Shown: positions 7,767-63,866 of the stretch, one piece after another
How the letters are laid out: every line of letters starts with the position of its first letter
Position numbering within the stretch: position 1 is the first letter of the stretch
Source: Natronorubrum texcoconense
GTDB taxonomy: Archaea; Halobacteriota; Halobacteria; Halobacteriales; Natrialbaceae
Direction of reading: 5' to 3'
DNA length: 64,000 bases
Assembly: GCF_900100335.1 (NCBI RefSeq)
Contig: NZ_FNFE01000005.1
Coordinates: 248,001-312,000, forward strand
Notes under the pieces: model-generated
The model's database searches: none
Seen by the model: the letters and a program-made list of their open reading frames with translations, nothing else
Told to the model about the DNA's origin: nothing
Made by a program: the position numbers and the translations under genes

Positions 7767-8651
7767 TCAGCCGGAGATGCGAATCGCGATGAACAGCATC
7801 GTGGCGAAGACGTAGGTCACACCGATGAACAGCGCGACGAGTCGGTTCGGGTCGAGCGGCCTGACGAGACAGGCGAGCGTGACGGCACCTGGGACGGCCC
7901 CGGCGAGTGCAGCGACGGTCGGCAGCGGTCCGAACAGACTCGAGACGAGTAGAACGACCAGACAAGCACCGATCAGTCCCCAGGCGATTCGCTGGGCTCG
8001 AGTCGGGCCGAGAACGACCGGAAGCGTTCGCTTTGCCAGCCGCCGATCGTGATCGTAGTCGAGCCGGTCGAGCATGATGTTGATTGCCGCGAGCAGCAAA
8101 AATAGCGTGAGACAGACGGCGAGGACCGTGTCGCTGACTGTCCCGGTCTGGGTCGCGTAGCCGCCGACCGTCGCGAGGCAGATGCCAAGTGGGTAATCGA
8201 CGGTGACGGTGAGCGGATGGGTGTCCAGTTGCGGCGCGTGGAAGTAGCCAAGCACGAGCAACGGTGCCGTGGCGACGGCCGCGATCGGCCCGCCGAACTG
8301 CCAGAGGAGTCCCAGACAGAGGCCGAACAGGATCGTCGCTACGGCGATCGCGAGACGGATCTCCCGTGGCTCGAGGGGGTTTCTCTCGTCTTCGCCGCGG
8401 ACGTAGTAGTCCACGTAGCCGTCTTTCAGGTGAGCGACGTAGACGGCCAGACAGACGGCGAACGCGTGGATCGCCCCACTCGAGACCGATATATCGGTCG
8501 CGAGCGCCGTGCCGAACACTGACATCGCCGCTCCCGGAACCAGAAATATCGGTTGGACGTGGACCCACAGCCCGTGACCCCTACGCTCGAGTCGCGTTCG
8601 CGACGGTACGGATGGATCGGACACGAATTGCCTTACCACATCGCAGTACAT
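7767..8651 (-). CDS. UbiA superfamily prenyltransferase
   Basis: 294 residues from the ATG at 8651 (a GTG at 8750 would add 33 residues). Polytopic membrane protein with the two Asp-rich UbiA motifs: DGYVDYYVRGEDE, and later DRLDYDHD, which bind Mg-diphosphate of the isoprenoid donor. Such enzymes attach prenyl chains to aromatic rings or lipid head groups (menaquinone, archaeol or carotenoid pathways). The acceptor cannot be deduced. It is flanked by non-coding DNA on both sides and stands alone on the minus strand. Confidence 0.82.
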   Translation of the reverse strand: MYCDVVRQFVSDPSVPSRTRLERRGHGLWVHVQPIFLVPGAAMSVFGTALATDISVSSGAIHAFAVCLAVYVAHLKDGYVDYYVRGEDERNPLEPREIRLAIAVATILFGLCLGLLWQFGGPIAAVATAPLLVLGYFHAPQLDTHPLTVTVDYPLGICLATVGGYATQTGTVSDTVLAVCLTLFLLLAAINIMLDRLDYDHDRRLAKRTLPVVLGPTRAQRIAWGLIGACLVVLLVSSLFGPLPTVAALAGAVPGAVTLACLVRPLDPNRLVALFIGVTYVFATMLFIAIRISG

Positions 8652-8951
8652 CAATAGTGGTCGTTCGAGAGTGATTCGTCCCTTCCGGTGTCGCCTCAGG
8701 AAGATCGAAACGATCAGCGACGATGCCCCCGCCGGCTGTTCGAACAACACGTCGACAGAGCCCGCTAGATCGCCGGCAGGGCATACCCGCTCGAGAACGG
8801 TCGGATCGTTCGTCCGGAACCGGTGACGAACTTCTCAAGGGTGATCACGCGATAAACGCTACCCTCCGCGGATAGCGAGTCCGGTCGTCGGTCTCGGTGT
8901 TCGGTTCCCGCCAGTGGAAAACGCTTTCACCCAGTTTCCCCAATAGCCGGT

Positions 8952-10340
8952 ATGTCGGTAACTGACTTGTTCGATCCCAGGGGTATCGCGGTTGTCGGAG
9001 CCTCCGAAACGTCCGGAAAGATCGGCTACGAAGCCATGCAAAACGCGGTCGAGTTCGACGGCCCGGTGTACCCGGTTAACCCGTCGGCGTCCGGGACCAT
9101 CTTCGGCCGAGAGTTCGTCTCTTCGGTAACCGAGATCGACGGCGAGGTTGATCTGGCGCTGTGTTGCGTGCCGGCGCCGATCGTCCCGGACGTCATCGAA
9201 GACTGTGGTAAAGCGGGTATCGGCGGCGCAGTCGTCTTCGCCGGCGGGTTCGGCGAGGCCGGACCGGACGGTGAGGAACTCGAGGAGCGACTCATCGAGG
9301 CCGCATCCGAGGGGGACGTCGCGTTGCTCGGGCCGAACACGAGCGGCTTTCTGGTCCCCGAAGAGCATCTCTTCGCGACGTTCGCGACTGACGTCGACAC
9401 CATCCCCGCCGGCAACGTCGCTGTCGTCGCCCAGAGCGGCGGACTCGCGTACGCCATCGCGTTTCAGGCTGAAAATGAGGGAGTTGGCGTCTCCGCGATG
9501 GTTGGGCTCGGCAACCGCGCGAACGTCGGCTTCGAGGAGGCGATCGAGTACTTCGACGGCGACGCGAAGACCGACTCGATCGTCCTCCACGTCGAGGGGA
9601 CCGACGACGGTCGCGGCCTCCTCGAGACCTGCCGGCGCGTCGAGACGCCGGTCGTCGCCTACAACGTCGGCGAACAGGACGTCGGCGATTTCGCGGAGTC
9701 ACACACTGGGGCACTCACAGGCGAATACGAACTGTACGAAGCAGGATTCGCCCAGTACGGCGTGCCCACGGTCCGTACGTCGACGGAACTCCTCGATGCC
9801 GGCACGGCGCTTGCGTCGTCGCCACGACCGGACGGGCCGAACGTCGGCGTCGTCACGGCCCAGGCTGGCCCGGGGATCGCGATCACGGACCGACTGAAAG
9901 CGGCGGGGGCGAACCTCCCCTCGCTCACCGAGGAGACCCAAGACATCGTCGAGGAGATCCTCCCCGGAATCACGTTCTCGGCGAACCCGGTTGATACCGG
10001 CCGTCCGATGCCGGAGTTCGGCGACGTCGTCGCCGCCGTCGCTCGCGACGACAACATCGATATCGTTCTCGTCTACGAGCTTTACGAGGGCGGACTGGGG
10101 TATCCGACCGACACGCTTGCGGCCGTCGTCGACGAGGTGCAGAAACCGATCGTCTTCGCCAGCGGCGGCCCCGAGGCCGTCATCAACGAAGAGCTCGCCG
10201 AACTCGAGGCGCTCGGAATCCCGACCTTCACGGCGCCTGAACGCGGGGCGGACGCGGTCAGCGCGCTCGTCCAGTACGCCAAGCGCAACGCGGGGCCCGA
10301 CGCGGCCGTTGCGGGCGAGGAGGTGAGCGTCGATGACTGA
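8952..10340 (+). CDS. ADP-forming acyl-CoA synthetase, alpha (CoA-binding) subunit
   Basis: 462 residues. It begins MSVTDLFDPRGIAVVGAS, the Rossmann-like CoA-binding domain of the AcdA/Pat family. A succinyl-CoA-synthetase-like flavodoxin domain follows, and then a domain starting NVGVVTAQAG. His251 in ESHTGAL matches the phosphorylated His region of ADP-forming synthetases. The ATP-grasp part is a separate gene (10333) overlapping by 8 bases, so the enzyme is the two-subunit form. It interconverts acyl-CoA + ADP + Pi and acid + CoA + ATP. Next to aromatic genes it may activate an aryl acid (inference). A decayed paralogue lies at 23132. Confidence 0.9.
   Translation: MSVTDLFDPRGIAVVGASETSGKIGYEAMQNAVEFDGPVYPVNPSASGTIFGREFVSSVTEIDGEVDLALCCVPAPIVPDVIEDCGKAGIGGAVVFAGGFGEAGPDGEELEERLIEAASEGDVALLGPNTSGFLVPEEHLFATFATDVDTIPAGNVAVVAQSGGLAYAIAFQAENEGVGVSAMVGLGNRANVGFEEAIEYFDGDAKTDSIVLHVEGTDDGRGLLETCRRVETPVVAYNVGEQDVGDFAESHTGALTGEYELYEAGFAQYGVPTVRTSTELLDAGTALASSPRPDGPNVGVVTAQAGPGIAITDRLKAAGANLPSLTEETQDIVEEILPGITFSANPVDTGRPMPEFGDVVAAVARDDNIDIVLVYELYEGGLGYPTDTLAAVVDEVQKPIVFASGGPEAVINEELAELEALGIPTFTAPERGADAVSALVQYAKRNAGPDAAVAGEEVSVDD
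10319..10326 (+). promoter_or_regulatory. strong ribosome binding site inside the alpha-subunit gene
   Basis: GGAGGTGA precedes the beta-subunit ATG (10333) by six bases while still inside the alpha coding sequence, ensuring coupled translation of the two subunits. Confidence 0.7.
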
Positions 10341-56587: not shown

Positions 56588-57637
56588 TCAGCGTAATTGC
56601 CAGATTACTCGTTGGTCCTCGCCCCACTCGGTGAAGTCGAACACCCAGTACAGTTCGGAGAGCCCTTCTTCGACCTGATAGGCGATTTTACTTTCGTGTT
56701 CCTCACCGGCGTTTAGGGTTGTGCCGTCGAAGTCTTCGAGCGCTGGTAATATACCCGACGTTTCGCCGTGGATTCGTCCGAATTCATCCTTGAGCTGAAC
56801 CTGTTCCGCCGAGAGCGTTCGATCGCGTCCGCTCCCGTTCTCGACGAGAACACCGATCGCGATGATCTCGTACCCTTCGTCGGACTGCATGAACCCGCCG
56901 AGGTTGTTTCCGTGCTCGAGGCTCGCCACCGTAACTTCGATCCCCGCTCGTTCGACTCCCTGAGAAAAACCGAGCGCGTCGTCGGTGAGGTCGTGTTCGA
57001 GCGATTCGCTGGCGGCTGCGTCCCGCTTCGTGTCGAGGTCGATAGTGGCGGTCTCGCCCGACGGCAGTGACTCGAGTTCGAGCACGAGTCCCTCGATATC
57101 GTCGTCGACGTCGTAAACGAGATCGCCCCGAACGACTTCGCCGGGTGCAAGGTGACGCTCGGTTGGATCGAGCGCCGCAGCGTCGAGTTCGTCGACGCGG
57201 TCGTACGTCTCGCCGTCTTCGTCGCTAAGGGTGACCGTTACCGTGTCGTCGACGTCCACCACCGCCTCGTCACCGACGTGCTGGAGCGCGAGGTCGACGA
57301 CCGCGAACGCCGCTCCGTCGTCCGCCTCGAGAACCTCGCGGTCCGATCCGGTCACGACGTCCGCGACCAGATCCAGATCGGCGACGACGACGTGCAGGTC
57401 ACCCACCTCGAGGCGGTCTCCGACCCCGAACTCGGGAGTCGCCGCGTCCGACTCGTCGCTCTCGTCCGCGCTACCAAGCTCGTCACTCGAAGCGGAGCCG
57501 TCCGTCTCAGTTTTCGATCGTGTTTCGTCGTCGTCACCCGCCTCCGTTTCGTCCTCCCCGTCGCTCGTGCAGCCGGCAATAGCGATCGCTCCACCTCCGA
57601 TCAACGCGAGGTACGTTCGACGGTCGATACGGTCCAT
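56588..57637 (-). CDS. secreted lipoprotein with DUF4352-like domains
   Basis: 349 residues from the ATG at 57637. The signal carries RR (DRRTYLALIGGG) and a lipobox IAGC (Cys23), so export by Tat with lipid anchoring is likely. A Ser/Asp/Glu linker (about 24-70) is followed by two beta-rich repeats. The first starts VGDRLEVGDLHVVVADLDLV, and the second VERAGIEVTVASLEHGNNLG. Both contain the hydrophobic-xV-x-NxG pattern of DUF4352/telomere-repeat-like Ig domains. Function unknown; presumably a cell-surface binding or structural protein. Confidence 0.8.
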   Translation of the reverse strand: MDRIDRRTYLALIGGGAIAIAGCTSDGEDETEAGDDDETRSKTETDGSASSDELGSADESDESDAATPEFGVGDRLEVGDLHVVVADLDLVADVVTGSDREVLEADDGAAFAVVDLALQHVGDEAVVDVDDTVTVTLSDEDGETYDRVDELDAAALDPTERHLAPGEVVRGDLVYDVDDDIEGLVLELESLPSGETATIDLDTKRDAAASESLEHDLTDDALGFSQGVERAGIEVTVASLEHGNNLGGFMQSDEGYEIIAIGVLVENGSGRDRTLSAEQVQLKDEFGRIHGETSGILPALEDFDGTTLNAGEEHESKIAYQVEEGLSELYWVFDFTEWGEDQRVIWQLR

Positions 57638-57837: not shown

Positions 57838-58470
57838 ATGACAACGCACTGTACCTACTGCGGGGACGCCGTTCCCGACGACGACTACGAGACGCACCTC
57901 AGGCGGACACACGCCGACGAGCTGACGGGGATCGACGAACGACGAGTGGGGCCGCCGTCCGACGAGTCGAAGCGCCGAAATCTGGCGTTTTACGCGGGCG
58001 CCGGCGTCATCCTCGTCGTGTTCGTTCTGGGATACAGTCTGGTGTTCCTCGGTTCCGGCGCCGACGCCAGTTCCGCGGCCGTCCAACCCGACGCGACGGC
58101 TCAGATACACGAACACGGGCTGCTCACCGTTCAGTACGATGATACCACCGTCGAGTTTACCGAGCCGCGGTACGTCGAAGCCGACGGCTGTTTCCACTTC
58201 CACGAAAGCGACGCGCAGGTCTGGCACACCCATTGCGATGGTGTCACGATCGAATACGCCCTCGAGACGCTCGGCATGGACGTGACGGCCGACACGTTCA
58301 CCGTCGACGGGCAGACGTTCGCCGAGGCGGACGGTGACGACGTCAGCGTGACCGTCGACGGCGAGGCGGTCGATCCGCAGGAGCACGTGCTCGAGGGCGT
58401 CGAATCCGTCGACGAGGCGGGTGATGGAGCGGGTGATACCGTCGAAATCGTCGTCCGATCCGGTGACTGA
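57838..58470 (+). CDS. C2H2 zinc-finger membrane protein with His-rich outer domain
   Basis: 210 residues. The N-terminus has a C2H2-type finger (CTYCGD ... HLRRTH). One transmembrane helix (about 50-72, FYAGAGVILVVFVLGYSLVF) separates it from a ~135-residue domain rich in His and with two Cys (IHEHGLLTV, CFHFHES, WHTHCDG). The orientation would put the finger in the cytoplasm and the His/Cys cluster outside, a possible metal-binding sensor or chaperone. It is transcribed away from the lipoprotein gene (200 bases between). Function unknown. Confidence 0.78.
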   Translation: MTTHCTYCGDAVPDDDYETHLRRTHADELTGIDERRVGPPSDESKRRNLAFYAGAGVILVVFVLGYSLVFLGSGADASSAAVQPDATAQIHEHGLLTVQYDDTTVEFTEPRYVEADGCFHFHESDAQVWHTHCDGVTIEYALETLGMDVTADTFTVDGQTFAEADGDDVSVTVDGEAVDPQEHVLEGVESVDEAGDGAGDTVEIVVRSGD

Positions 58471-58732: not shown

Positions 58733-58885
58733 TATCCCAGTCTGAATCTCCGAACAGCCAGCTTTTACCGCGATTCTTCCCTACCCTTCGTCGTCTCTAT
58801 TTGACCGTAACCACCGAAGAGCGACCAGTCTAGAGACCGACCTACAGCGTAACTGGCAGTCATACTAGATATTGGATAGACACAC

Positions 58886-60757
58886 ATGATAGATCGAGTC
58901 GGTGTCATCGCGTTGATTGCTCTCGTGGTGTTAGGTGGTGTCGTGGCAGCGACTGGTTCCGTCACGAACGGTGACGACCAGACCGTCATCTACACACTTG
59001 ACGACGAGCGATGCGACGTGAGCGAACACCTGGACGAAACTGTCGATATCACGAACGAGATCGACGAGCGAGAGAGTCAAAGCGAGAGCGAGCGGGACCG
59101 GGCGAATAACGATCACCGCGAAAACGAACGCGACTACGACGTCAGCGAGAGCGACAGCGAGCGCGACAGTTCGAGCGCAGTCGACGAGAGCGATCGCGAC
59201 GTCAGCGAGAGCGATCGCAGCTCCGACAGCGAGTACGATCGCGACGGCAGCAGCTCCGACGTGAACGACCGCGACGAACAACGCGACTCGAGCAGCGAGC
59301 GCGACGCGAGCGACGTCGACGAGAGCGAACGCGACGTCAGCGAGAGCGAAACCGACGACACGGACGTCGAGATCGACGAAAGCGAGCGCGACAGCGAGCA
59401 CGATGTCAGCGAACGCGACGCGAGCGAGTCGGACGCCGACAGCACGCACAGCGAGAGCGACTCGAGCGCCAGCGACAGCGCCGCCGACGAGAACGAGGCG
59501 AGTGCCAGCGAGAGTTCGAACGACATCGCCGAAAGCGGGAGTTCCGCCGACGAGAGCGCGAGCGATCGCAGCGAGAGCGACGTCGACCACGACGATGCGG
59601 AGCGTGACGTGAGCGAACGCGACAGTAGCGATACCGAAGCGAACGAGAGCGAGACGACATCCGACGAACGCGACCTCGAAGAACGCACCGCGGACGAAAG
59701 CGAACGCGACGTCATCGACGGCGAACGCGACGAGCGCGAGGGCGAGCACGAGGCCAATTCGAGCGACGAGAGCGATCAGTCCGCGAGCGGGACGGACTCC
59801 GAACGGATCGATGCGGACCGATTCGATCGCGGTGACGACGTCGACGCCGAAAACGTCAACGACAGCGAAGCGAGTGAATCGAGCGAGCGGAACGAACGCG
59901 ACGGCGAGAGCGAAACGAACGAGTCGGAACGCGAGGAGAGCGATCGCGAGGCGAGCGAGAGCGACCGTAGCGAAAGCGACAGGAACGACTTCAACAGCGA
60001 ATCGTTCCGCGGCGAGAGCGTCGAGTCCGCCCTCGACGACTCCGAAAGCACTCGAGCGGGTAGCGAGAGCGACCTCGACCAGAGCGATCGGGAGGCGAGT
60101 AGCGCCGAACGCGACAGTTCCCGCGCAGACTTCGACAGCGAAGAGTTCGCCGGAGATCGCAGCGAATCGGCGAGCGAGCAGCGCGATACGAGTCTCGACA
60201 CCACAGATAACGACTCCGAACGCAACGAGAGCGACCGTACCGACCGCGGCAGTGACAGCGACCGTACCTCGAGCGAACGCGACGGGAGTACGCACTCCGA
60301 CGAACGCGACGAGAGCGAGCGCGAGCGCAGCGAGTCGACCGAGTCCGCACTCGACACCGAGAGCGAGAGCGACACGGGAATCGACGAGCGTCAGGACACC
60401 GACACCGAACGCGAACGGACCAGCGACCGCGACAGCGACCGAGACGAGAGCGAACGCGACCGCAGCGAGCGCGCGGACGAGAGCGAACGCGACAGTCAGC
60501 GCGACCAGAGCGAGCGCGAGCGCGGCCTCGAGACGCGCGACAGCGACCGTAGCGAGTCCGACGCCGACAGCGAGAGCGAACGAACACAGAGCGAACGCGA
60601 CCAGAGTGAACGCGAACAGACGACAGATTCGGACTGTGAGACGGTTTCGGAGCGTATGATCGTCACCGGCGACAGTCCGCAGGAGCTCGAGCGAAAGGGC
60701 GTCCTCGTCGAGAACGATAACGGATCGTACGACGTCGACGTCAGCAAACTCGAGTGA
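58886..60757 (+). CDS. exported Ser/Asp/Glu/Arg-repeat protein 1
   Basis: 623 residues. A membrane/signal segment (VGVIALIALVVLGGVVAATG, residues 5-24) is followed by a short acidic head with Cys43 in DDERCD. About 520 residues of Ser, Asp, Glu and Arg in irregular short units (ESERD, SDRD, ESDVS) come next. A structured-looking C-terminal end of 40 residues starts at Cys584 (CETVSERMIV, ELERKGVLVEND). There is no PGF-CTERM or sortase tail. I see no other Cys. It resembles in composition staphylococcal SD-repeat stalks and RD/RS-type dipeptide proteins, without homology evidence. A T-run at 60789-60793 may end transcription. Confidence 0.82.
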   Translation: MIDRVGVIALIALVVLGGVVAATGSVTNGDDQTVIYTLDDERCDVSEHLDETVDITNEIDERESQSESERDRANNDHRENERDYDVSESDSERDSSSAVDESDRDVSESDRSSDSEYDRDGSSSDVNDRDEQRDSSSERDASDVDESERDVSESETDDTDVEIDESERDSEHDVSERDASESDADSTHSESDSSASDSAADENEASASESSNDIAESGSSADESASDRSESDVDHDDAERDVSERDSSDTEANESETTSDERDLEERTADESERDVIDGERDEREGEHEANSSDESDQSASGTDSERIDADRFDRGDDVDAENVNDSEASESSERNERDGESETNESEREESDREASESDRSESDRNDFNSESFRGESVESALDDSESTRAGSESDLDQSDREASSAERDSSRADFDSEEFAGDRSESASEQRDTSLDTTDNDSERNESDRTDRGSDSDRTSSERDGSTHSDERDESERERSESTESALDTESESDTGIDERQDTDTERERTSDRDSDRDESERDRSERADESERDSQRDQSERERGLETRDSDRSESDADSESERTQSERDQSEREQTTDSDCETVSERMIVTGDSPQELERKGVLVENDNGSYDVDVSKLE

Positions 60758-61035
60758 GACGGAACCGACCCGACAGTTTCGGCCGCTATTTTTCGGCGTT
60801 TCGGTTCGCAGACGATCAGGGGCACCGTCGCACGGCTCTCAGTGGGGAGCCGTCTCCGCGGGGACGGCGTTTCTCGCACGTCAGGTGAGTTCCGAACGGT
60901 GGCCGCGTTCCGTTCGGCGCCCGATCGCCGTCAGTGGGTCCGATCTCCCCCGTATCTCCCCGTGGCTTCGTCTCCAGTTCTTAACACCATCCGGCAAAGA
61001 GGGCAGTGACCTACGGGATAGGTTTCGAGCATAGC

Positions 61036-62919
61036 ATGAAACAGAAATTAGCAACCCTCACAGTGGTTTGTCTCTTGTTGCTGTCCGGCGCGGCCGGCGT
61101 AAGCGGGGTGGCTGGAGCGAGCTCCGGCGCCAGCATGCAAGTGGACGATCGGTGTGACGCGGATGAATCCGTCGAGGACAGTACGTCGACGGCCGCCGAC
61201 GAGGAGGAAAGTCAGCGGGACAGTAGCAGCGACCGAGATCGCTCCAGTAGCGACCTCCGAGAGAGTTCGAACGACGCCGATCTGAGCGAAAGTGACAGCG
61301 CGAGCGATAGCTCCAGCGACGTCGACGAGAGCGATCTCGACCAAAGCGACCGCGACAGTTCGAGCGACAGCGCGTCCGACCGCGACGGAAGCACGTTCGA
61401 CGAGAGCGACCGCGACGAACAGCGCGACTCGAGCAGCGAGCGCACCGTCAGCAACGTCGACGAGAGCGACCGCAGCGAGAGTCAAAGCAACGTCGACGAC
61501 GCGGACGTCGAGGTCGACGAGAGCGAAACCGACCTCGACCGCGACGTCAGCGAGCGTAGCGAGAGCGAGTCCGACAGGGACAGCACGCTCAGCGAGAGCG
61601 ACTCGAGCGCCAACGACAGCGCCTCGGACGCGAGCGACTCGAGCGCCAGCGACAGTTCGAGCGACACGGACGAGACCGACAGCTCTACCGACGAGAGTTC
61701 GAGCGACTCGAACTCCAGCGACATCGACCACGACGACGCCGACGTCGACGTGAGCGAGCGTAATTCGAGTTCCTCGGACGAGAGCGACAGCTCGAGTGAC
61801 CTCGAAGAGAGCGACGTCGAAGAGAGCGACAGCTCCGAGAGCGAACGCGACACGAGCGACCACAGCCTCGACGAGAGCGAGAGCGACTCCGAGGAGAGCG
61901 AGAGCGACGAGAGCGAGAGCGCCGACAGTTCGAGCGATTCCGAACACGACGAACGCGACTCGAGCGACCGCGGCGAGAACGATCGCGACACCTTCGACCG
62001 CATCGATAGCAGCAGCGACAGCGACTCAGACGAGAGCTCACAGAGCGAAACGGACTCGAGCGAGAGCGACCGCAGCGTGAGCGAGAGCGCCTTCGACGAA
62101 TCGGAGCGCGACGCGAGTCAGAACGACCGCACCCAGAGCGACCGCACGAGCTCCGACAGCGACAGCGACTCGAGTTCGAGCGACGAATCTGAACGCGACG
62201 CGAGCAAGAGCGACCGTCACGGCTCCGAGAGCTCCCTCGACCAGAGCGACCGCGACGCGAGTACCGCCGACAGCGACCGGACCCACAGCGAGTCCGCCAG
62301 CGATCAGAACACGAGCGACAGCAGCGACACCCAGAGCGACCAACAGGATAGTAGCCTAGACAGCACGGACAACGACAACGAACGCAGTAGCAGCGCGAAC
62401 GACGAGCACGAAGTCTCGAGCGACCGCACCTACAGCGAGAACGACCAGAGCACGACCACCGACGAGAGCGACGTGAGCGAGAACGACCGCAGCGAGAGCA
62501 GCGAGTCCGAACTCGACACCGACAGCGAGAGCGACGCTGGCGTCGACACCAGCGAGACGAAGGACGTCGAGAGCGAGTCCAGCAGCGACGCGGACAGCGC
62601 CTCCGACAGCAGCCAGAGCGACCGTAGCGAGAGCAGTACCGACAGCCAGAGCGAGTCCAGCCTCGACAGCAGCGACAGCGACAGCGACGTCGACAGTCGG
62701 GACAGCACCCGAAGCGACTCCGACACTGACTCCGAGAGCGTGAGCTCCCAGAGCGAGTCCGACGACAGTAGCTTCGACGAGTCCTACGACTCCAACTGCG
62801 GCCACGGCGACTCCGACGCGGACGACGACAGCGACAACTCCGAAAGCACCGAGCGCTCCAGCGTGACCTCGAGCATCGGCAACGCATTCGGGAACCTCGT
62901 GTCCGCCATCCTCGGCTAG
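61036..62919 (+). CDS. exported Ser/Asp/Glu/Arg-repeat protein 2
   Basis: 627 residues from the ATG at 61036. A classical signal peptide (KQKLATLTVVCLLLLSGAAG) is followed by a short head with Cys40 in DDRCDA and ~540 residues of Ser/Asp/Glu/Arg repeats, with more Ser-Asp (SDSD, SSSD) and less Arg-Glu than its neighbour. The 40-residue C-terminus begins at Cys588 (CGHGDSDADDD) and ends in a hydrophobic helix-like tail (SSIGNAFGNLVSAILG). It follows its paralogue by 278 bases on the same strand. A surface or secreted polyampholyte is likely; the function is unknown. Confidence 0.82.
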   Translation: MKQKLATLTVVCLLLLSGAAGVSGVAGASSGASMQVDDRCDADESVEDSTSTAADEEESQRDSSSDRDRSSSDLRESSNDADLSESDSASDSSSDVDESDLDQSDRDSSSDSASDRDGSTFDESDRDEQRDSSSERTVSNVDESDRSESQSNVDDADVEVDESETDLDRDVSERSESESDRDSTLSESDSSANDSASDASDSSASDSSSDTDETDSSTDESSSDSNSSDIDHDDADVDVSERNSSSSDESDSSSDLEESDVEESDSSESERDTSDHSLDESESDSEESESDESESADSSSDSEHDERDSSDRGENDRDTFDRIDSSSDSDSDESSQSETDSSESDRSVSESAFDESERDASQNDRTQSDRTSSDSDSDSSSSDESERDASKSDRHGSESSLDQSDRDASTADSDRTHSESASDQNTSDSSDTQSDQQDSSLDSTDNDNERSSSANDEHEVSSDRTYSENDQSTTTDESDVSENDRSESSESELDTDSESDAGVDTSETKDVESESSSDADSASDSSQSDRSESSTDSQSESSLDSSDSDSDVDSRDSTRSDSDTDSESVSSQSESDDSSFDESYDSNCGHGDSDADDDSDNSESTERSSVTSSIGNAFGNLVSAILG

Positions 62920-62944
62920 AGACGCGAACGCGACCCGTCGGCTC

Positions 62945-62950
62945 TTTTTT
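62945..62950 (+). terminator. T-run after repeat gene 2
   Basis: Six T residues (62945-62950) follow the stop of repeat gene 2 by 25 bases. Archaeal termination is often driven by such U-tracts. No hairpin is needed or seen. Confidence 0.4.
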
Positions 62951-63212
62951 GTGGCACCGTCGACGACTCGAGAGCAGCCGCATCGGACGTCGATCGAGTC
63001 GACGAACGAGGTTATGATATCGACCGGAGCGACTCCGTCGTACACCCGTGAGACCACCTTCGGTCACGTCGACCATCCAGACGTGAGTCCGCGAGGGAGT
63101 CGGTATCGTCCGTCGACAGCGAGTTCGGTCAGTCCGTTCCAACGTCCTCCGGTATCCCCCGATCAACGACATCGGCGCACGTCCTACTACCGTTGCGCTC
63201 CTTTGAGAACGT

Positions 63213-63866
63213 ATGAGCACCAACGAAACGACGATAGGCTCCGTCGAACGCCAACCTTCGGGACCACGGTGGGGCAACGCCACTCAACACGCAGTCGACA
63301 GCTATCTCCACGCCAACGACGCGCTGTTCTCCGCGTTCGGTCTCTCCGCCCCGAGGACGACGGACGATCGAATCGACGCACCGATCGGCGGACTGACCTA
63401 CGCGGCACCCGACTGGTCGATGGAGCGATCGGCGGAACGCGTCGACGAACTCGACGTGGGATCGTACGTCCGATTCACGAAGTCCATTCCGGCAAGTGAC
63501 CTCGAAGCGTTCGCGCGGATCAGCGGTGATACGAACCGGCTACACCTGGAGGAGTCGTTCGCGACCCACACGCGCTTCGACGGCCGCATCGCCCACGGAG
63601 CGCTCGTCGCGGGGACGATCAGTGCCGCCCTCGCTCGCCTCCCCGGACTCGCGATCTACCTCTCGCAAAACCTGCAGTTCAACGCGCCGGTCTATCCCGG
63701 CGATACCGTCACCGCCGAGTGTGAAATCGTCGAGACGCTCGGGGGTGGGCGCTACCGCCTCGCCACCACGGTGTACGACGAGGACGGCGACGCCGTGATC
63801 GACGGCGAGGCGGTCGTCCTCGTCGAAGATCGATCGCCAGTAGCGGCGACGACTCCGGATCTGTGA
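63213..63866 (+). CDS. MaoC-family (R)-hydratase/dehydratase
   Basis: 217 residues. The C-terminal hotdog domain (about 80-205) carries the hydratase-2 motif AFARISGDTNRLHLEESFA, followed by RFDGRIAHGAL, with the catalytic Asp and His. An N-terminal extension of ~75 residues (RWGNATQHAVDSYLHANDALF) is helical and resembles phasin-like regions of haloarchaeal MaoC/PhaJ proteins. The enzyme hydrates trans-2-enoyl-CoA to (R)-3-hydroxyacyl-CoA, a supply route for polyhydroxyalkanoate. An opposing gene tail begins 50 bases downstream. Confidence 0.87.
   Translation: MSTNETTIGSVERQPSGPRWGNATQHAVDSYLHANDALFSAFGLSAPRTTDDRIDAPIGGLTYAAPDWSMERSAERVDELDVGSYVRFTKSIPASDLEAFARISGDTNRLHLEESFATHTRFDGRIAHGALVAGTISAALARLPGLAIYLSQNLQFNAPVYPGDTVTAECEIVETLGGGRYRLATTVYDEDGDAVIDGEAVVLVEDRSPVAATTPDL

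Follow-up and report, generated by a model that had tools for sequence, protein, structure and literature searches.

How can a protein made largely of serine, aspartate, glutamate and arginine hold its length to the residue while its sequence changes? The question is raised by two genes, here called type A and type B, in a window of 64,000 nucleotides from the haloarchaeon Natronorubrum texcoconense (contig NZ_FNFE01000005.1, positions 248,001 to 312,000), the whole stretch of DNA that was analysed and to which all coordinates below refer unless a locus is named. The type A gene (58886..60757, + strand) is an open reading frame (ORF) of 623 aa, and the type B gene (61036..62919, +), read from its ATG, is one of 627 aa. 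Both encode exported-type Ser/Asp/Glu/Arg proteins, whose cores contain 22-34% Ser, 20-23% Asp, 12-19% Glu and 6-12% Arg and carry a net charge of about -145 to -155. Each core is bracketed by Cys: by Cys43 in the head LDDERCD (59012..59014, +) and Cys584 (60635..60637, +) in A, and by Cys40 in the head DDRCD (61153..61155, +) and Cys588 (62797..62799, +) in B, which has an additional Cys12 within its signal segment. Both reading frames and all four bracketing residues lie where a preliminary description of this DNA had placed them. From the sequences compared here, the length constraint on the type B core appears unusual and is well supported.

Whole-genome sequence searches yielded a family of 38 intact full-length members (16 of type A and 22 of type B) in 18 genomes, A and B being two co-inherited types of one family. 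Exactly two Cys occur in the mature chain of all 38, one per core end. The preliminary description had suggested that both positions are under selection, and this is now strongly supported: the bracketing Cys are invariant, no homologue lacking either was found among the 38 members, and none has a third Cys in the mature chain. In type B, the second Cys follows the first by 548 residues in 21 of 22 members, the remaining one having 536. This spacing holds in a copy from another archaeal family and in pairs down to ~39% identity. The first Cys of type B stands at position 34-43 and the last lies 27-78 residues from the C-terminus; since head and tail thus vary, the constraint maps onto the segment between the Cys. 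The preliminary description had instead stressed a second Cys 40 residues from the C-terminus. That distance stands for both proteins of the window and for type A generally (39-40 residues, 16 of 16) and fails for type B. The equal tails of A and B in the window are a coincidence, the conserved quantity being the distance from Cys to Cys.

Equal lengths might also arise from insertions and deletions (indels) that compensate one another. In every B pair compared, the best alignment is at offset 0 for most 40-residue blocks, the exceptions being weak blocks of the more divergent pairs, so compensating indels are not an obvious source of the equal length. Only one gap in total was found in the B core across the nine pairs that are 57% identical or more. 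Two more divergent pairs show 8-10 aligner gaps with a net length change of zero, which we take for overfitting of low-complexity sequence. Between the same genome pairs, gaps per 100 substitutions number 2.0 in the A core and 6.8 in the B tail, and among neighbouring genes, 1.9 in the membrane protein ZnTM, 5.4 in a lipoprotein and 2.6-3.3 in Bat proteins. With 549 columns and ~4.26 changes in each (~2,300 substitutions), the B tree holds one net length change, where the ZnTM rate would predict ~45 indels; the Poisson P of ~1e-18 (4e-14 if five indels are hidden) takes the tree as given and ignores its uncertainty. Length kept while sequence diverges is a trait of indel-depleted multi-chain rods. 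Synaptonemal complex proteins, for example, are depleted in indels and keep their length in this way, which has been attributed to their multi-chain structure (PMC8598163). The type B core behaves likewise, but those proteins are eukaryotic coiled coils, and A and B have neither homology to them nor a coiled-coil composition.

Type A is evidently less constrained in length, judging from its members: the Cys-Cys distance is 541-551 in 14 of 16, with outliers of 504 and 529. The shorter outlier (L027:9292-11052) has a core deletion of ~44 residues, while the type B protein of the same genome stays at 548. A strict in-register pair of A with B was considered and rejected, as A lengths differ in genomes whose B is at 548 (504 versus 548 in L027). 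The two types are colinear paralogues and more than alike in composition. Global alignment of the A and B cores scores 1352, against 559 +/- 21 for composition-preserving shuffles of the B core, and the two run at offset 0 over the first ~280 residues and at offset 1 over the last ~240. The earlier view that their repeats differ is incorrect.

The end pieces of the two types are distinct. Type A begins with a hydrophobic N-terminal signal segment (58886..58957, +), conserved in all A and modelled by AlphaFold2 (AF2) as a helix at residues 2-21; because no twin-arginine is seen in it, Sec export is the probable route. Its C-terminal segment, DCETxSERLIVTGDSxxELExKG...DVDVSKLE (60635..60754, +; family consensus DCETxSERLIVTGDSxxELExKG..ENDDGSxDVDVSKL(E)), is predicted to form a beta-alpha-beta-beta mini-domain, with an AF2 predicted local distance difference test score (pLDDT) of 60-72. 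Searched alone against PDB, this tail gave non-significant filamin matches only, and no other protein was found to carry it as a possible sorting signal (best E elsewhere 0.016). Type B ends mostly in an amphipathic helix, which in the window spans residues 612-625, S-IGNAFGNLVSAILG (62869..62910, +; AF2 helix, low confidence); the motif is conserved outside a Natronococcus-like clade, whose B end differs. Unlike archaeosortase substrates with PGF-CTERM, no A or B tail in the family has a C-terminal PGF motif and hydrophobic segment, as had been said of the two window proteins. Unlike archaeal lipoproteins, A and B have no lipobox, their head Cys standing within RCD, 34-43 residues into the chain.

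Across the family, net charge per core ranges from -120 to -190, and Ser accounts for 16-39% of core residues and stands beside acidic residues; the best conserved columns are of the Ser and acid classes. The ratio of nonsynonymous to synonymous substitution rates (dN/dS) of the core is 0.12-0.43 in all computed pairs but three, which reach 0.52-0.88 and include the two most divergent comparisons. For most type A pairs the core value is 0.12-0.34, and in most of them the C-terminal segment has the lowest dN/dS. The low dN/dS and the fixed B spacing show that the core, for all its low complexity, is under selection on both sequence and length. AF2 monomer models, built from shallow alignments of 18-22 sequences, gave no fold for either core (mean pLDDT ~37). 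The acidic residues show a periodicity of about 2.36 residues, the power in this band exceeding that of first- and second-order Markov versions in 8 of 8 proteins, and of third-order versions too (p<=0.05 in 8 of 8). The peaks, at 5, 7, 12, 14, 19 and 24 residues, suit a loose period of 2.36 residues better than a fixed unit, which led us to reject a simple pentad or heptad. On the opposite strand, the codon bias of A and B leaves ORFs of 454 aa (58931-60295, -) and 532 aa (61685-63283, -), in which nothing gene-like was seen.

A and B also share a promoter element of 28 bp. It lies 81 nt before the ATG of A (TTCCCTACCCTTCGTCGTCTCTATTTGA, 58777..58804, +) and 51 nt before that of B (TCCCCGTGGCTTCGTCTCCAGTTCTTAA, 60957..60984, +), and separate alignments of the A and B upstream regions gave the common element YYCCCNNNNCTTCGTCKYCNNTNYTTRA beside a T-rich, TATA-like end. 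The B element stands 49-52 nt from the ATG in every carrier except those of the Natronococcus-like clade; since the window's copy ends at 60984 and this spacing is conserved, we prefer the ATG at 61036 over the GTG at 61006 as the start of B. With at most two mismatches allowed, the 4.64-Mb genome holds only two copies, one before A and one before B, and no match to a reversed control pattern. A relaxed form, at one mismatch, matched 28 times in the 125 genomes of the window's taxonomic family, 26 of the matches lying, by position, upstream of A or B genes. It occurs in 16 of 17 carriers and, as a single copy each, in 2 of 108 non-carriers (Fisher P 4e-17, not corrected for the relatedness of the genomes). 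Within three mismatches, the element precedes all 38 genes examined, including both genes of G415, the carrier outside that family. Part of these sequences went into building the pattern, which makes its presence in them partly a matter of construction; this does not apply to its absence elsewhere. A and B carry a private promoter element and appear to form a private regulon.

A and B constitute a new, uncharacterised exported protein family. Searches of Pfam and NCBIfam returned no match at E<=1, PDB and IMG/VR returned none, and a literature search on haloarchaeal Ser/Asp proteins found nothing relevant; RefSeq labels the N. bangense copies hypothetical proteins. Homologues were present in 9 of 100 related genomes searched and, within the window's family, in 19 of 125; 17 of these carry intact genes and two hold degraded remnants. 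A set of 392 genomes sampled from the order gave the pair outside that family only in G415 (locus L061). Homologues of type A occur in 15 family genomes and one beyond the family, and the 22 type B members are spread over 18 genomes. Named carriers include Natronorubrum thiooxidans, N. bangense, Natrialba chahannaoensis, N. hulunbeirensis, Natrialba sp. SSL1, a Halostagnicola, Natronolimnohabitans innermongolicus, four Natronococcus and one metagenome-assembled genome. In N. bangense the whole cluster (L062, NZ_CP031306.1 394634-420451) sits on an 827-kb plasmid, the sole match in PLSDB, and this location may explain the patchy distribution of the family. Both degraded loci belong to genomes without a close ZnTM orthologue: G104 (L059, about 8394-8953) retains only fragments of the A head and tail, interrupted by stops, and G137 (L060, about 9209-9691) retains a remnant of 160 aa whose tail resembles that of B, along with a detached piece of an A tail.

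The genes around A and B recur with them. The neighbourhood of A, B, ZnTM, a lipoprotein and a Bat regulator is found again in carriers, including the genome of another family. ZnTM (57838..58470, +; 210 aa), directly upstream of A, combines a CxxC...H....H zinc-finger-like N-terminus, predicted cytoplasmic, with one predicted transmembrane helix and an exported domain in which HxHG, CFHFH and WHxHC are invariant; it matches no Pfam family. A close ZnTM orthologue (>175 bits) accompanies A in 15 of 15 genomes and occurs in one of 110 others, that one carrying B alone; more distant relatives are more widely spread. The DUF4352 lipoprotein (56588..57637, -; PF11611, 1.2e-26) is present in most clusters, its family also occurring in non-carriers. 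Bat-type regulators (PAS/GAF/BAT/HTH_10) and an S8 protease flank many clusters, and in the window's genome a Bat1 relative lies a few kb past the window end. In Natronococcus-like genomes where A and B are split, A stays with ZnTM and Bat1, and B with the lipoprotein and Bat2. An S8 subtilase with a long N-terminal extension adjoins Bat2 in several carriers (L023:17165-18998, L022:17768-19001) and is absent from the window's cluster.

We speculate that A and B serve as the two structural components of a dedicated and co-regulated polyanionic cell-surface polymer system in haloarchaea, probably haloalkaliphiles, a reading that we favour tentatively and hold to be somewhat short of probable. 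Both chains would be secreted and build up an extended polyanionic layer on the outside of the cell, and a PAS/GAF regulator of the Bat type, itself encoded in the cluster, would turn on both genes. At pH 9-10.5 the end thiols would be oxidation-prone thiolates, and disulfides could join chains to one another or to an anchor; disulfide closure, multimer formation and anchoring are all candidate roles for the Cys pair, as originally proposed. Type B chains may be packed in register with others of their type; this would account for the intolerance of even a one-residue indel between the Cys. Because one residue in 548 barely alters the span of the chain, register in an assembly explains the exact length of B better than span does. 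Carrier genera are known for soda-lake species, and the record for N. bangense gives a salt-alkaline lake as its source. The layer would concentrate Na+ and H+ at the membrane, as do the acidic wall polymers of alkaliphilic Bacillus; that such polymers lower surface pH there (PMC8153356) makes a polyanionic layer plausible here, and the names of the hosts and the charge of the cores point to a possible role at high pH. The likeness to Bacillus teichuronopeptide (PMC8153356), also a polyanionic surface material, is an analogy of function only; the Bacillus polymers are enzyme-made poly-gamma-glutamate and polyglucuronate, whereas A and B are gene-encoded proteins.

Several points weigh against a polymer system of this kind. 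The looseness of type A, with lengths of 504-551 and an indel rate (2.0 per 100 substitutions) near that of ZnTM, makes an in-register pair of A and B unlikely, and a pure tether or buffer would need no exact length. The putative alkaline link is drawn from 12 named loci, and several genomes of the window's own genus have neither A nor B. AF2, from shallow alignments, yields no assembly. A bolder version, which we consider doubtful, is that type B cores form a new, in-register, hydrophobic-free Ser/Asp/Glu/Arg filament, with an acidic residue roughly every 2.4 positions, covalently clamped by Cys at both ends and folding only in saturated brine, for which a single-residue indel would be lethal to assembly.

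Other explanations fit parts of these data. The chains could be disordered tethers or rulers, anchored at one end by the signal anchor or the B amphipathic helix and bound through the far Cys to another surface component, so setting the distance from membrane to outer layer. Conserved inter-Cys length, predicted disorder of the core and distinct end pieces suit this idea, but we think it unlikely: one residue in 548 shifts a random-coil span by ~0.1-0.2%, which leaves the exactness of B unexplained, and A varies by up to 47 residues. A surface metal trap, in which the end Cys and the His/Cys domain of ZnTM bind or transfer a metal such as Cu, Zn or Hg, with cations retained by the acidic core, would account for ZnTM, with its invariant motifs, being the closest partner, and for Cys and acidic groups being all that is conserved in A and B. 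It is nonetheless quite improbable, since a single Cys per end with no conserved His nearby makes a poor metal site and the cluster has no metal-resistance genes.

The abundance of Ser next to acidic residues, in the best conserved columns, instead recalls a modified polyanion, in which many Ser would be phosphorylated or glycosylated and the chain would sequester divalent cations or control mineral growth in the manner of phosphophoryn or a mucin. Dentin phosphophoryn and SIBLING-type proteins are indeed secreted, disordered, Ser/Asp/Glu-rich chains like A and B, although they vary freely in length, have no bracketing Cys and show no homology to A and B. With neither a kinase nor a glycosyltransferase in the cluster, and few N-glycosylation sequons (1-11 per core), modification on this scale seems no likelier than the metal trap. 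In staphylococcal Clf/Sdr stalks, (SD)n dipeptides run for a variable length from an adhesin domain to an LPXTG anchor, and A and B, too, are exported low-complexity chains rich in Ser and Asp. However, a comparable adhesion stalk or phage-facing decoy is very unlikely here: A and B mix S/D/E/R with no dominant dipeptide, have Cys at each end, and lack any adhesive domain, sortase signal or PGF-CTERM; such stalks vary freely in length, as B does not, and selection is purifying rather than diversifying. Finally, the genes might be no genes at all but low-complexity ORFs from biased DNA, and the long antisense ORFs show how readily this DNA stays open. The chance of this is negligible, an artefact being ruled out by dN/dS <1, fixed length, invariant Cys, the dedicated promoter and orthologues in several genera.

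A repeat-like, disordered-looking protein is expected to gain and lose residues easily, yet type B keeps its 548 residues through ~2,300 substitutions and into a second archaeal family. Some factor seems to read the register of a chain nearly devoid of hydrophobic residues. If that factor is assembly, the architecture would perhaps be functional only in salt; to our knowledge, none like it has been described for archaea. Two genes, a promoter element confined to them and a co-inherited membrane partner provide a genetic handle, through which the construction of the outermost layer of haloalkaliphiles would become directly testable.

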